The notes under the pieces: generated by a model | The model's database searches: none | Told to the model about the DNA's origin: nothing | Seen by the model: the letters and a program-made list of their open reading frames with translations, nothing else | Source: Candidatus Geothermocultor quzhuomuensis | Lineage (GTDB): Bacteria > Actinomycetota > Aquicultoria > Geothermocultorales > Geothermocultoraceae | Assembly: GCA_015711795.1 (NCBI GenBank) | Contig: JACVJC010000014.1 | Span: forward strand, 1-59,859 | DNA: 59,859 nucleotides | Direction: 5' to 3' | In this document: piece after piece, positions 1,047 through 12,841 of the stretch | Position numbering within the stretch: the first letter of the stretch is position 1 | How the letters are laid out: each line of letters starts with the position of its first letter | Translations under genes and position numbers: made by a program

Positions 1047-2033
1047 TTATCTCTGAGTATCTTTTTCCTCAATCGATGGTTCAATGTGAACTTCAGCTGA
1101 AATATTTTCAATCTTTTGATAAATTTTATTTTTCACCATAGTAGCGACACAATGTGATTGATGAACATTTAATCTTCCATCAACCAAAACATGAAGGGAA
1201 ACAACCTTTTGGTCCTTGTAGTCATGGAGGAAAATTTTATGGACACCTTTAACTCCTTTGACGGAACGAGCTATTGCTTCAATCTCAGAGACAAATTCAT
1301 CGCTTGCTCCTCTTCCGATCAAAAAGTCCACTGCCATCCGTCCGAAGCCAAGGCCAGTGTAAATTAAAAGACCAGAAACTAACAGACCGAAAATTGGGTC
1401 AATTAAGTGATAACCAAAAAGAGCACCGATAATTGCCAAAGTAACTAATAAAGAGGCAATGGCATCACTTCGATGATGCCACGCATCAGCCAGCAAGGCA
1501 GAAGAATCAATTCTCAAACCCAAATCTATCGAAAAACGAGCTAACCACTCTTTTAACAATGAAGAAAACAAAAGAATGCCGACAACAAGAAAACTCCCTT
1601 TGACAACTTGAACCTTAATTATCCTCTCAATAGAATTTTTAAAGAAATCGATACCGATTAAAATAATTAAAATGGCAATAACTAAAGTGGCTATCGTTTC
1701 AAATCGACCATGCCCATAGGGGTGAAATTCATCCGCTGGCTTTTTAGCAATTTTAAATCCAACAATTACAATGATAGAAGTAAAAACATCAGATAAAGTA
1801 TGAAAAGAATCGGCAATCAAGGAAATACTATTTATTAAGAGCCCAAAGATAAATTTAAAGATAAAGAGGATAAAATTTAAAAAGATGCTTAGCCAGCCTT
1901 CTAAATAGCCATATTTTGCTTTTACTTCATAACTTTGAACATTCTCACCATTGCGAATAAACAAATGAAGGATAAAGTCATTAATTCTTTTATTAATAGA
2001 CTTAAGGGGGAACTTACTGTTACTTTTATCCAT
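1047..2033 (-). CDS. Cation diffusion facilitator (CDF) metal exporter
   Basis: Membrane antiporter exporting a divalent metal (Zn, Co, Ni, Fe or Mn class) in exchange for protons. The 328 aa protein has about six membrane segments. The two metal-site HxxxD motifs of the family are visible: HTLSD in ADSFHTLSD (helix 2) and HHRSD in ADAWHHRSDA (helix 5). A cytoplasmic C-terminal dimer domain with VHIEPS-type His residues follows. The ATG is preceded by GAGG at good spacing. It has its own promoter and a structured leader that looks like a NiCo riboswitch, which would make Ni2+ or Co2+ the likely cargo. The substrate is inferred from the leader, not from the protein. Confidence 0.9.
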   Translation of the reverse strand: MDKSNSKFPLKSINKRINDFILHLFIRNGENVQSYEVKAKYGYLEGWLSIFLNFILFIFKFIFGLLINSISLIADSFHTLSDVFTSIIVIVGFKIAKKPADEFHPYGHGRFETIATLVIAILIILIGIDFFKNSIERIIKVQVVKGSFLVVGILLFSSLLKEWLARFSIDLGLRIDSSALLADAWHHRSDAIASLLVTLAIIGALFGYHLIDPIFGLLVSGLLIYTGLGFGRMAVDFLIGRGASDEFVSEIEAIARSVKGVKGVHKIFLHDYKDQKVVSLHVLVDGRLNVHQSHCVATMVKNKIYQKIENISAEVHIEPSIEEKDTQR

Positions 2034-2046
2034 TGCTTCCTCTTTA

Positions 2047-2091
2047 CATAAAAAAACCTGCGTCTCCTTCTTTAGAAGTCCCGCAGGTTTT
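2047..2091 (-). terminator. Riboswitch expression-platform terminator
   Basis: Inverted arms AAAACCTGCG (2053-2062) and CGCAGGTTTT (2082-2091). On the minus strand they are followed by seven T, just upstream of the ribosome-binding site of the CDF gene. A terminator between a promoter and its gene implies regulated read-through. The 5' arm also contains CCTGCGGGAC, which would belong to the last part of the aptamer, a usual design for switching. Confidence 0.75.
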
Positions 2092-2175
2092 AAAAACTGC
2101 TGCTCTTAAAAGAGCCCGGCCCCATTTTAGGCTTGCCTGTCCGCTAAAGGCAGGCACTGCTTTTGATTGCCTGAT
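2053..2175 (-). ncRNA. Probable NiCo (czcD) riboswitch
   Basis: The leader between the promoter at 2216-2245 and the CDF gene is highly structured. On the minus strand it contains, in order: the hairpin TGCCTG..CAGGCA with GGACAGGCA; then GGGGCCGGGCTC; the hairpin GCTCTT-AAGAGC followed by AGCAGC; then CCTGCGGGAC, leading into the terminator. From memory these blocks resemble the czcD-motif (NiCo) aptamer, which controls CDF exporters; I could not run a covariance search. The gene context fits. TGCCTG..CAGGCA hairpins also occur as simple palindromic repeats, so part of the structure could be unrelated. Confidence 0.55.
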
Positions 2176-2215
2176 CTTCTTCTCTCTTTAAATTTCAAAG
2201 AAATAACAAAAATAA

Positions 2216-8759: not shown

Positions 8760-10019
8760 TTAATAAGTAGGGTGATGGCGCTTCTTTCTCTGGAGGATTC
8801 CCCTTGCTTCAAGAAGTCGAGCTAAAAAGCGAATTATTTTAGGGTCGTAAATAATTCCTTGTTCCTTCTTTAAACTCCTTATTGCTTCTTCGGGCCTAAG
8901 TCGCCCTTCTCCTTCCTCAAAAACCATATTGTCGTAAGTGCTAACAACATTAATTATTCTAGCTGACAAAGGAATCGTTCCCATTTCCTGTGGCTTCTTT
9001 TTATGATGAAGAAAAGGTTTATGATGTTTTCTTACGATTTCAGCAGTATCCTTTAAAAATGGTGTTTTTTGTAATATTTCTTCTCCAATCGTCGCATGGA
9101 GTAAGTCCCCTTCTTTAGAAGTAGAGCTCTCAAGCAAAAAATCAAGTGAATATTCATCGACTCCAATTTTCCCTAAATCATGGAGAAAGGCCGCTTTCCC
9201 TAAATTTTCAAAATCTTTTCCCTTTAATTTAAATAACCGCCCAAGTTCCAATGATAAATCATGAACTCTCTCAGCGTGAGCTAAAAATTGAGATTTCCTT
9301 TTGCCAATCACTTTAACAACTAATTTGATAAGTTTCTCATAGTTTTCCTTAGTAGAATATAAAGACCATAAAAAATACTGGATCCCAAGGGCAATAAAGA
9401 AAAAGGGGAATGACCAAAAATGAATTTTCTTAAACAAAGTGACTACCAAAATCCCGAGAAAAAAATGAGAAAAATAGCTTTGCCAAGTTAATAAACTAAG
9501 ATCATAAATAACTGGTAAGAAAGGTAGATAGCCTTTTGTAAGTAGCTCTGGCTCCATTAAGCTAATCTCAAGAGCAAAATAAAGCAAACCAGTAAGAATA
9601 TAACCTAAGAGAGGATAAGACCTTAAAAAAGGTAAGTTAATTATGAAATTATAGAAAATCCAAGAAAGTGAAAGCGTGATGGTTAAGCTGGAAACGAGAT
9701 AAATTATTTCTCCCCAATTGATTTGCTTTTTTCGAGCCAATTTAACAAGCAAAGTAGATAAAACTGCTATTGCTAAAAGATGGTATAAAGGGAGAATAAA
9801 AAGGGAAGCAAAAAGAATGACTGTACTAGCCGAGAATGTTACTCGAATATTAGTAATCTCACTCTTAAACTCGAAATCAGGAAGCTTAAAAAGAAAAAGA
9901 AGAAGAAATAAAAGGGAGGCTACCTCTATCTTATTGAAAGAAAACTCCCTTAAGAAAAAGGCAAAAAAGAAAATTCCAACAATAATAATTACATATTGAA
10001 AGAGACTCTTTTCTTTCAT
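8760..10019 (-). CDS. Membrane HD-domain protein with degenerate GYP loop
   Basis: 419 aa. The first 210 or so residues form about seven to eight membrane helices; the C-terminal part is an HD phosphohydrolase-type domain with AAFLHDLGKIGVDEYSL, HATIGEEIL and IVRKHHKPF. It resembles an HD-GYP domain, but the HHExxDGxGYP stretch is replaced by HHKPFLHHKKKPQEMGT, so the signature for c-di-GMP hydrolysis is lost. It may be a sensor, an inactive partner, or have another substrate. Its ATG overlaps the stop of the HD-GYP gene by four bases, so the two are paired. Confidence 0.8.
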   Translation of the reverse strand: MKEKSLFQYVIIIVGIFFFAFFLREFSFNKIEVASLLFLLLFLFKLPDFEFKSEITNIRVTFSASTVILFASLFILPLYHLLAIAVLSTLLVKLARKKQINWGEIIYLVSSLTITLSLSWIFYNFIINLPFLRSYPLLGYILTGLLYFALEISLMEPELLTKGYLPFLPVIYDLSLLTWQSYFSHFFLGILVVTLFKKIHFWSFPFFFIALGIQYFLWSLYSTKENYEKLIKLVVKVIGKRKSQFLAHAERVHDLSLELGRLFKLKGKDFENLGKAAFLHDLGKIGVDEYSLDFLLESSTSKEGDLLHATIGEEILQKTPFLKDTAEIVRKHHKPFLHHKKKPQEMGTIPLSARIINVVSTYDNMVFEEGEGRLRPEEAIRSLKKEQGIIYDPKIIRFLARLLEARGILQRKKRHHPTY

Positions 10020-11260
10020 CTTTTCTCCTCCTCTAAAAGAGCAAGGAAAGCTTCAACAATCTCAGGGTCAAATTGGGTTCCACTAAAGTTCTTTATTTCT
10101 TCAATTGCCTCTTCCCTCTCCATATGCTGACGATAAGGTCGAGGGGAAATCATTGCTTGAAAACTTTCAGCCACTAAAATAATTCGAGATAATAGTGGGA
10201 TAGAGCCCCCAACTAATCCTTCAGGGTAACCTGTTCCATCAAACCGCTCATGATGAGAGAGGATGTAACTTCTTGCCTCTTTATTTAAATTCAACTCTTC
10301 CATTACTGAAGAAGCAATTTGGGGATGTTGTTTAATCTTTTCAAATTCTTCCCTTGTTAAAAGCTCTGGCTTAGTAATAATTCCTCGTGCTTCACTTATC
10401 ATTCCAATATCATGAAGATAAACAGCTGTTCTTAAAATTTTCATTTCTTTTGGGGAAAGCCCCACTTTTTTACCAATTTTTTCTGCAATTTTTTCAACTT
10501 CAATTGAGTGGTCCTTAGCTGAAAAGGCTTTTTCTTCTAAAGAAGAAATAAAGGAAGATAAATTAGGGAAGAAGTTTTTTTCTTCTTCCTGACTCATTAA
10601 AAAGATTTCTCTTAAAATAAACAAAGGAACAGCAAAGGAAAAGACCCCCAAAACTGAACCATTGTTATAAACAACAGAAAAAAGTAAACCTAAAATTGAA
10701 AGGATTAAGTAGCCCTGAAAAAGGTGAGGAATTTGGAGCTTAGGTAATAATTGCTCAATCTTTAAATCTTCAAAAATTATTCCCCGTAATGACTTAAATA
10801 AATTGTAAAAAAAGAAATAAGTAAGGATTAAAACAAGAAAAGGAAGAACAGTTGAAGCACCTGGGTAAACCCAATTTTGACCAAGAGCTTTTAACCAAAA
10901 ATAGAGATAACCTGCGACCTGAATTGAAATAAGGTACTCACAAAGATTAAGAAAGATAAAGTAAATTGGAGTCTTTTCTTTTATATCATCCCACTTAAGA
11001 GCAGCGAAAATTGAAATAATTGAAGTAGTTGCAAGCCCCGTTGATAAAAGAGAAGCCAAAAGAAAAGGAAATACTAAGGGAAGGCCAAAGACTGGTAAGG
11101 TAATATTAAAAAAGTTAAAGAAAAATAAGAGAATTCCAAAAGAAATTGCTTCTAGTGGTAATTTTGCTCTTGAGGTTAAAAAAAGAGTTAAAAAAAGAAG
11201 AAATGCTAAAAGATAAAATGAGCCAAGATAAACCTCGTGAACCAAGGAATATTTTTTCAT
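10016..11260 (-). CDS. Membrane HD-GYP protein, likely c-di-GMP phosphodiesterase
   Basis: 414 aa with about seven membrane helices in the first 220 residues, then a full HD-GYP domain: VYLHDIGMI, KQHPQIASSVMEE and the signature HHERFDGTGYPEGL. Such enzymes degrade cyclic di-GMP at the inner face of the membrane. Lies 13 bases after hpf and overlaps the next HD gene by four bases. Together they sit between hpf and secA, which are close neighbours in many Gram-positives. Confidence 0.88.
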   Translation of the reverse strand: MKKYSLVHEVYLGSFYLLAFLLFLTLFLTSRAKLPLEAISFGILLFFFNFFNITLPVFGLPLVFPFLLASLLSTGLATTSIISIFAALKWDDIKEKTPIYFIFLNLCEYLISIQVAGYLYFWLKALGQNWVYPGASTVLPFLVLILTYFFFYNLFKSLRGIIFEDLKIEQLLPKLQIPHLFQGYLILSILGLLFSVVYNNGSVLGVFSFAVPLFILREIFLMSQEEEKNFFPNLSSFISSLEEKAFSAKDHSIEVEKIAEKIGKKVGLSPKEMKILRTAVYLHDIGMISEARGIITKPELLTREEFEKIKQHPQIASSVMEELNLNKEARSYILSHHERFDGTGYPEGLVGGSIPLLSRIILVAESFQAMISPRPYRQHMEREEAIEEIKNFSGTQFDPEIVEAFLALLEEEKR

Positions 11261-11273
11261 CCTCTCCCCGAAC

Positions 11274-11825
11274 TTAACTCTCCAGAATCGCTTCTATAAC
11301 ACCGTAGTTGCCATCTTTTCTCCGATATAAAATATTTAGCCCCCCTGTTTCTGAATTTGCAAATATAAAGAAATCGTGACTGAGAAGTTCCATTTGTAAA
11401 ATTGCTTCTTTGAGCGACATTTGATTAATTAAAAACTGTTTTTGCTTCACTACTCTTCTTGGAATCTTCTTACCTTTTTGACTCTCCAAAGCAGCTTCAA
11501 CAAAACGCTTAGTATGCTTATTGAAGCTAGAATAATTTTTTCCTTTATATTTTTCAACTTGCCTTTCCAGCTTATTAATAGCCTTATCAATCGAAGCATA
11601 CATATCTTTGGAAGAAGCAACAGCTCTAAAAATTGGTCCCTCAGTAAAGAAGGTAATTTCAACTCTTTGATTCTCTCGAATACTGGGGTTTTTTTCCACA
11701 ATTAACTCTGCTTCTCCTTTTATAATACGATTAAAATGATTCTCAACTTTCGACATTTTTTTCTTTAGATACTCCTTTAAAGCCCGAGTAATATTAATAT
11801 TTCTCCCCTTGACAATTGTCTTCAT
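11274..11825 (-). CDS. hpf: Ribosome hibernation promoting factor, long form
   Basis: Binds the 30S decoding region and, through its C-terminal domain, pairs 70S ribosomes into inactive 100S dimers. 183 aa: N-terminal domain (TIVKGRNINITRALKEYLKKK) and C-terminal dimer domain (SLKEAILQMELLSHDFFIFANSE without a break in frame). I choose the ATG at 11825, five codons inside the longest frame, because GGAGGGAAG precedes it at good spacing. First gene of hpf, HD-GYP, HD and possibly secA-prfB. Confidence 0.95.
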   Translation of the reverse strand: MKTIVKGRNINITRALKEYLKKKMSKVENHFNRIIKGEAELIVEKNPSIRENQRVEITFFTEGPIFRAVASSKDMYASIDKAINKLERQVEKYKGKNYSSFNKHTKRFVEAALESQKGKKIPRRVVKQKQFLINQMSLKEAILQMELLSHDFFIFANSETGGLNILYRRKDGNYGVIEAILES

Positions 11826-12210
11826 TCGACTTCCCTCCATATTCCTTTATCCTTCAGACATTATTCTCGAAACCAAATCCATAAGTCCTGTTTAAAATCC
11901 CCCTCCTTGTCTTTAAAAAATTAATTAGTGCTGAAGACTTGAGCAAAAAGCAGACTGACGACTGAAGAAAAAATTAATTAAAAAATTTTTCAATCTTAAG
12001 TGCAGGAACTTCAGACTTTAGTCCACTGTTCGCTCCAGCTTTTACTGCCTTCGGCTTTTAATTTTGCTTTTTTCGATACCACCCTTTAATTTTAAAGAAA
12101 TACTGTAGCAAAAGGGCTCAGTTTGTCTCAAGCAATTTGTGTCTCGGATCTTGATTCTTTTATACTAACCTATGGGAGTAACATAATTCAATTAAGAAAA
12201 ACTCTAAGTT
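11826..12210. repeat. Intergenic region upstream of hpf with word-like repeats
   Basis: No gene is seen. Between about 11930 and 12060 there are words of the CTGAAG/CTTCAG type: GTGCTGAAGACTTGAG, CAGACTGACGACTGAAG, AACTTCAGACTTTAGTCC and two ATTAATTAA-like stretches. The hpf promoter must lie here; candidate boxes (TTGAGA with TACAGT near 12100-12140, minus strand) are weak and I do not call one. Confidence 0.5.
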
Positions 12211-12215
12211 AAATA

Positions 12216-12241
12216 AAAACCCCGCCTTTTGGCGGGGTTTT
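12216..12241 (-). terminator. Strong terminator after cspA
   Basis: Perfect arms AAAACCCCGCC (12216-12226) and GGCGGGGTTTT (12231-12241) with a TTTT loop. T-rich on both sides, so it could act both ways, but on the minus strand it lies 25 bases after the cspA stop. Confidence 0.9.
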
Positions 12242-12265: not shown

Positions 12266-12469
12266 CTAAAGAACTCTTTTTACATTCGCAGCTTGCGGTC
12301 CTTTTGGACCATCAACAATCTCGAATTCAACTTCTTGGCCCTGTTCAAGGCTACGAAAACCTTCGCCTTGAATTGCAGAAAAGTGAACAAAAACATCATC
12401 GCCATCTTCACGAGCAATGAAGCCATAACCCTTCTCTGCACTGAACCACTTAACAGTCCCTTTTTGCAT
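12266..12469 (-). CDS. cspA: Cold shock protein CspA family
   Basis: Small single-strand nucleic-acid-binding protein (67 aa) that melts RNA structure in the cytoplasm. RNP1 is KGYGFIARE and RNP2 is VFVHFSAIQ. Complete and of normal length. AAGGAGGAAAG precedes the ATG. It has its own promoter (12516-12544), placed directly after the terminator of the upstream non-coding RNA, and a strong terminator behind it, so it is monocistronic. Confidence 0.95.
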
Positions 12470-12515: not shown

Positions 12516-12544
12516 AAGTTAACATAATGAGTGGCAAAAGTCAA
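12516..12544 (-). promoter_or_regulatory. Probable cspA promoter
   Basis: Minus strand TTGACT (12544-12539), 17-nt spacer, TAACTT (12521-12516). The -35 box overlaps the T run that ends the upstream ncRNA. The mRNA leader would be about 40 nt, much shorter than the long cold-responsive leader of enteric cspA. Confidence 0.5.
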
Positions 12545-12553
12545 AAAAAGCAA

Positions 12554-12751
12554 GTCTCCACCTAGCTGACCTGGTCTTTGCCCCCACACTCGCCTCCGAT
12601 AGCTTTATTAACTTATCGGAGGACTTACACCTAAACCGCGCCATGCTCCCCCACTTTTGGCGGGGTTACGTGGGTCCTTTCGCCCGCGGCTGGCATGGAC
12701 TATCCTCTCTCTTAAAAGGAGAAAGGAGCAACCACAGACCTAGATGGAGAC
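12554..12751 (-). ncRNA. Structured 198-nt non-coding RNA (candidate raiA RNA)
   Basis: Closed by GTCTCCATCTAG (12751-12740) pairing with CTAGGTGGAGAC (12565-12554). Inside, on the minus strand: hairpin CCTTTCTC/GAGAGAGG, a CCATGC/GCATGG helix enclosing hairpin CCCCGC-CAAAA-GTGGGG, and the 9-bp hairpin CCTCCGATA/TATCGGAGG. A near-consensus promoter starts transcription exactly at the first base of the closing helix, and seven T follow the last helix base closely (12549-12543). No convincing reading frame. A roughly 200-nt RNA located shortly upstream of hpf (= raiA) suggests the raiA RNA class of Firmicutes and Actinobacteria; this family name is inference from size and context only. Confidence 0.75.
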
Positions 12752-12757
12752 AAAAAT

Positions 12758-12786
12758 ATTATACTTTGCCTCCATTTATCCGTCAA
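12758..12786 (-). promoter_or_regulatory. Promoter of the 198-nt ncRNA
   Basis: Minus strand TTGACG (12786-12781), 17-nt spacer, TATAAT (12763-12758). The expected start, six to seven bases downstream, falls on the G that opens the closing helix (12751). Confidence 0.85.
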
Positions 12787-12841
12787 TTAAGCGGAAATTG
12801 TAAAAATTTATCTATTATCGTACCATTATTATTGTAAATTA

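Follow-up and report, generated by a model that had tools for sequence, protein, structure and literature searches.

The closest known system to the RNA described here is raiA RNA (Rfam RF03072), named ModT in Clostridioides difficile and represented by structures from Clostridium acetobutylicum (PDB 9CXF and 9ELY). It is widespread and, in both conservation and abundance, ranks near the top of the bacterial RNAs that have no assigned molecular function. In Clostridia it acts in trans, as seen in trans complementation, is highly abundant during growth, and when mutated delays the entry into stationary phase and raises c-di-GMP (PMC11706538). The literature describes it without a cis expression platform, and we found no published binding of raiA RNA to HPF or ribosomes in that literature. 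Cryo-EM has provided a fold with two pseudoknots, pk-1 and pk-2, from which we took our helix model (PMC11751092).

The window, by which we mean the whole 59,859-nt stretch of DNA analysed, comes from a genome of a deep Actinomycetota class. Because Actinomycetota were already published as a host phylum of raiA RNA (PMC11706538), the host range is not new; what our comparison adds is the genomic context of the RNA, namely hpf, the long form of HPF, and Spo0A.

The gene, its ends and its neighbours

An Rfam scan of the window at the gathering threshold returned three matches: a raiA RNA (RF03072), a tRNA and a NiCo riboswitch. The raiA match covers the full model (12557-12748, minus strand) and scores 134.5 bits, with the cut-off at 101.3 (E 5e-33); its alignment contains the complete conserved core, P2 as an insertion and P6 in a short form. 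As read from the sequence, the gene is 198 nt long, runs on the minus strand from 12751 down to 12554, and is the single copy in a 1.76-Mb genome. The locus comprises the following elements.

12758-12786, minus strand: sigma-70-type promoter of the RNA gene, TTGACG-17-TATAAT, 11 of 12 consensus positions
12554-12751, minus strand: raiA RNA gene (RF03072 model positions 1-209 of 209)
12543-12549, minus strand: T7 run 3' of helix P1, probable intrinsic terminator with P1 as stem (most relatives are T-rich after P1)
12266-12469, minus strand: cspA, cold-shock domain (PF00313, 110.7 bits), 84 nt 3' of the RNA
12216-12241, minus strand: the terminator of cspA itself
11274-11840, minus strand: hpf/raiA, long hibernation-promoting factor (PF02482 and PF16321), about 1 kb from the RNA

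The initial annotation had placed a self-contained RNA gene of this size upstream of cspA and hpf, with a near-consensus promoter setting its start at the first base of a 12-bp closing helix and a T7 run close behind that helix, and each of these sequence elements was borne out. The promoter is the top-scoring one in a 2.3-kb region, the predicted start lies 7 nt past the -10 box and coincides with the first base of P1, and P1 (12740-12751 with 12554-12565) is followed by TTGC and then by T7. Both cspA and hpf lie downstream on the same strand. Among the loci compared, 24 have upstream sequence, and 22 of these show a TANNNT -10 hexamer 9-23 nt 5' of P1; P1 is 10-29 bp long with a T-rich stretch directly 3' in most loci. 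This supports a common architecture in which, judging from sequence, transcription would start at or near P1 and end through P1 and a U-run, so that P1 may double as a terminator stem. The T-run after P1 is absent in four loci (L002, L012, L024 and L025), where termination must therefore differ.

The -10 box is also the centre of an imperfect 12-bp inverted repeat at 12744-12775 (ATGGAGGCAAAG-TATAATAT-TTTTGTCTCCAT; p ~0.002 by simple shuffling, for a repeat chosen after looking). It is a possible operator; by eye, relatives have none. Elsewhere in the window, two adjoining HD_5 (HD-GYP-like) membrane proteins encoded between hpf and secA (8760-11260, minus strand) are candidate cyclic-di-nucleotide phosphodiesterases, and the NiCo riboswitch (2074-2188, minus strand, 46.1 bits) precedes, in a canonical arrangement, the gene of a 328-aa protein (1047-2033, minus strand) resembling a cation-diffusion-facilitator transporter.

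The position of the RNA before the start codon of cspA on the same strand raises the question of whether it is a cis-acting leader, either a riboswitch or a thermosensor, of cspA or hpf. Rfam types RF03072 as 'Cis-reg; riboswitch', a label that fits neither the trans action described in print nor the gene orientations, which vary among the genomes compared here. In one relative (L021) the RNA lies ~35 nt before an hpf start, and in the window cspA showed no good promoter of its own, so some cspA transcription could be read-through. However, P1 and the following U7 would terminate the transcript, the RNA has been shown to complement in trans (PMC11706538), just six loci have cspA as the next gene downstream on the strand of the RNA, and hpf, which is downstream on the same strand in 13 genomes, is divergent from the RNA in the other 12 of 25. 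The cspA thermoregulator (RF01766), which also lies before and over a cspA gene, matches weakly at 41.8 bits, below its cut-off of 78. Since this alignment extends across both raiA and the coding region of cspA, the window RNA is not a member. We consider a leader role very unlikely and reject it, since gene order and orientation are not conserved.

Fold and family membership

The region 12540-12800 folds with an energy of -102 kcal/mol (z = -4.9; 0 of 200 shuffles as good). This minimum-energy structure differs from the native one, since it pairs upstream promoter sequence and is unable to show pseudoknots. For the native fold we used that of the raiA family and tested it by covariation. Its parts in the window RNA, all on the minus strand and in 5' to 3' order, are given below, with P2, P5 and P6 assigned from the sequence.

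12740-12751, minus strand: 5' strand of P1a, pairing with 12554-12565
12730-12737, minus strand: 5' strand of P1b/P1c, CUGUGGUU, pairing with 12566-12576 around a GGU bulge
12702-12728, minus strand: P2 hairpin, at the place of A21-A22 in the P2-less form; present in 22 of the 23 raiA loci of the class
12674-12700, minus strand: P3a/P3b stem-loop, supported by a swap in P3a and by pk-1 covariation
12685-12691, minus strand: 7-nt loop of P3, AGCCGCG, the 5' half of pk-1
12666-12673, minus strand: 5' strand of P4, CCAC, with GUAA at the base of P5; invariant columns
12649-12665, minus strand: P5 hairpin, variable
12634-12646, minus strand: pk-loop, GCAUGG (with the U-G of pk-2) and then CGCGGUU, the 3' half of pk-1
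12593-12622, minus strand: P6, the short 'variant 1' hairpin without P7/P8 (variants as in PMC11751092)
12577-12587, minus strand: 3' strand of P4, GUGG, and J4-1c, GGCAAA, with the 3' half of pk-2
12554-12576, minus strand: 3' strand of P1c/P1b/P1a, GACCAGGUCAGCUAGGUGGAGAC

Every pair of P1, P3 and P4 forms in the window RNA, and the joining nucleotides match the conserved columns. P1 consists of GUCUCCAUCUAG/CUAGGUGGAGAC, 12 pairs with one G-U. The two halves of pk-1 pair at 7 of 7 positions, and in pk-2 (U82-A182 and G83-C181 of the family) the U-G of GCAUGG pairs with the C-A of GGCAAA. Inside the closing stem the RNA carries P2, P3, P4, P5 and the short P6, together with both pseudoknots of the cryo-EM structure.

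Covariation was assessed on 25 raiA RNAs parsed into conserved blocks, 23 of them from the phylum of the window (mostly its class) and two from outside it or of unstated kinship. Their 21 distinct cores aligned gap-free, and the cryo-EM helix model (PMC11751092) was counted on 42 pairs, or 882 cells. The core helices are paired in 99.4% of these cells, whereas shuffles reach 91.7% and slid controls 32-48%; the corresponding covariation scores are 0.335 for the real alignment, 0.165 for shuffles and at most 0.095 for slid controls. Two-sided changes affect 16 of the 42 pairs (80 cells among the 21 cores), 11 of which belong to P1a/P1b and three to pk-1, whose seven pairs form in all 25 sequences. 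P3a undergoes a C-G/G-C swap among relatives, and pk-2 has one compensatory change, from U-A to C-G, in a single locus (L106); the P4 columns are invariant and thus carry no covariation information. Two of the checks that had been proposed with the initial annotation, an Rfam scan and a search of relatives for covariation, gave positive answers.

The window RNA is thus a new member of the raiA family and not a new class, and the gene is otherwise that of an ordinary raiA RNA. That it is a raiA (ModT) noncoding RNA, with the family fold, a P2 hairpin and the short P6 of variant 1, is, on the sequence evidence, almost certain. Among the RNAs compared, the short P6 is found only in the window RNA and in two genomes of one family (f9). 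A decayed or unexpressed copy is highly improbable, countered as it is by the near-consensus promoter, the intact core helices, the complete pk-1 and the single genomic copy. The initial annotation was right that size and place agree with raiA RNA, as the end-to-end match above the curated cut-off and the conserved hpf neighbourhood attest, but its other suggestion, a new class resembling raiA RNA only in size and place, deserves practically no credence: the window RNA does score 25-40 bits under most relatives, owing to its short P6, yet the full-length RF03072 match rules the idea out, nearly all nucleotides invariant among relatives are kept, and the short-P6 type recurs in family f9 (127-137 bits) and is published for 32% of the raiA family (PMC11751092).

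Several observations concern the variable arms. In L024 and L025 (genomes G009 and G024, two species of one genus), the P2 and P5 hairpins are identical within each species and different between them, being CCGACTCGTCGG in one and CCGCCGATGGCGG in the other. Palindromes like CCCGCCGATGGCGGGG occur in 72 and 39 copies in these genomes, against 0 for the reversed control, so that dispersed elements of this kind seem to have colonised the variable raiA arms there, or homogenised them. In another relative (L022, 1155-1454), a tandem repeat of GATTGCGATATTTACC (~2.5 copies) in the P2 arm extends the match to 300 nt. In the window, the P5 hairpin (12648-12667) and the cspA terminator hairpin (12220-12239) are identical at 18 of 20 bases and are the only two genomic copies at no more than one mismatch; the likeness could reflect hairpin conversion or a chance similarity of GC hairpins. 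The P6 loop can also be matched in antisense to the cspA 5' UTR (by eye at ~14 of 15 positions, with a duplex energy of -18.8 kcal/mol), but we do not claim this pairing, because its shuffle p of 0.02-0.04 is uncorrected and it was found after looking.

Hibernation factor, Spo0A and a proposed role

The RNA is present in 23 of 36 genomes of the class, and hpf lies within 7 kb of it in 25 of 25 genomes. The C-terminal domain of long HPF is found in 31 of the 36 class genomes and in every genome that carries raiA RNA (23/23 in the class, 25/25 overall). The co-occurrence gives a Fisher p of 0.0034 for the 36 class genomes and 0.0013 for 40 genomes with kinship ignored, and its independence is low because the HPF-negative genomes fall in approximately three lineages. 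Nine of 34 HPF-positive genomes are without raiA RNA, indicating that HPF does not need it, and a search near hpf in seven of those nine found no overlooked divergent copy at E 1. Spo0A_C was found in none of the 40 genomes searched, which means that sporulation under Spo0A is not what raiA RNA serves in this class. A link to c-di-GMP is possible, although the presence of GGDEF in 40 of 40 genomes is no test of it.

This context fits a trans-acting RNA tied to the growth transition and to ribosome hibernation, rather than a cis leader or a sporulation-specific factor: the constant nearness to hpf argues for a shared pathway, and the varying orientation argues against a leader. We propose that raiA RNA is transcribed autonomously from a housekeeping promoter, with the first base of P1 as its start, that the transcript would end through P1 and the following U-run, and that the RNA folds into the compact family structure with its double pseudoknot. 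By analogy with the published work in Clostridia it would act in trans and would probably help cells out of fast growth as a structured RNA, or an RNP, of high abundance. The most likely point of action would be the ribosome or translation side of the switch from growth to stationary phase, as raiA RNA is accompanied by the gene of the long hibernation factor wherever it was seen, Spo0A-free hosts included; the c-di-GMP and sporulation effects may lie downstream of this step.

The link to the ribosome, drawn from gene neighbourhood and from presence and absence, is tentative. A further reading, which we regard as doubtful but possible, makes raiA RNA a functional partner of long-HPF ribosome hibernation, for example by binding or timing HPF or hibernating ribosomes. 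If it is true, the sporulation and c-di-GMP phenotypes in Clostridia would be secondary, and the ancestral role would be the one seen in this actinobacterial class, which is free of Spo0A. That raiA RNA occurs in small-genome, Spo0A-free Actinomycetota, with hpf nearby in every case and long HPF in each of these genomes, suggests a core function other than sporulation and directs the search for it to ribosome hibernation.

In summary, the window RNA shares with RF03072 a full-length covariance match, the conserved core, P1, P3, P4, P5, P6, pk-1 and pk-2, the hpf neighbourhood and what appears to be a stand-alone gene. The hosts of raiA RNA in its class differ in being without Spo0A. Compared with the C. 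acetobutylicum RNA, a P2 hairpin replaces A21-A22 of the GNRA-like turn, and P6 is of the short variant 1 type without P7/P8 that characterises about a third of RF03072 members.
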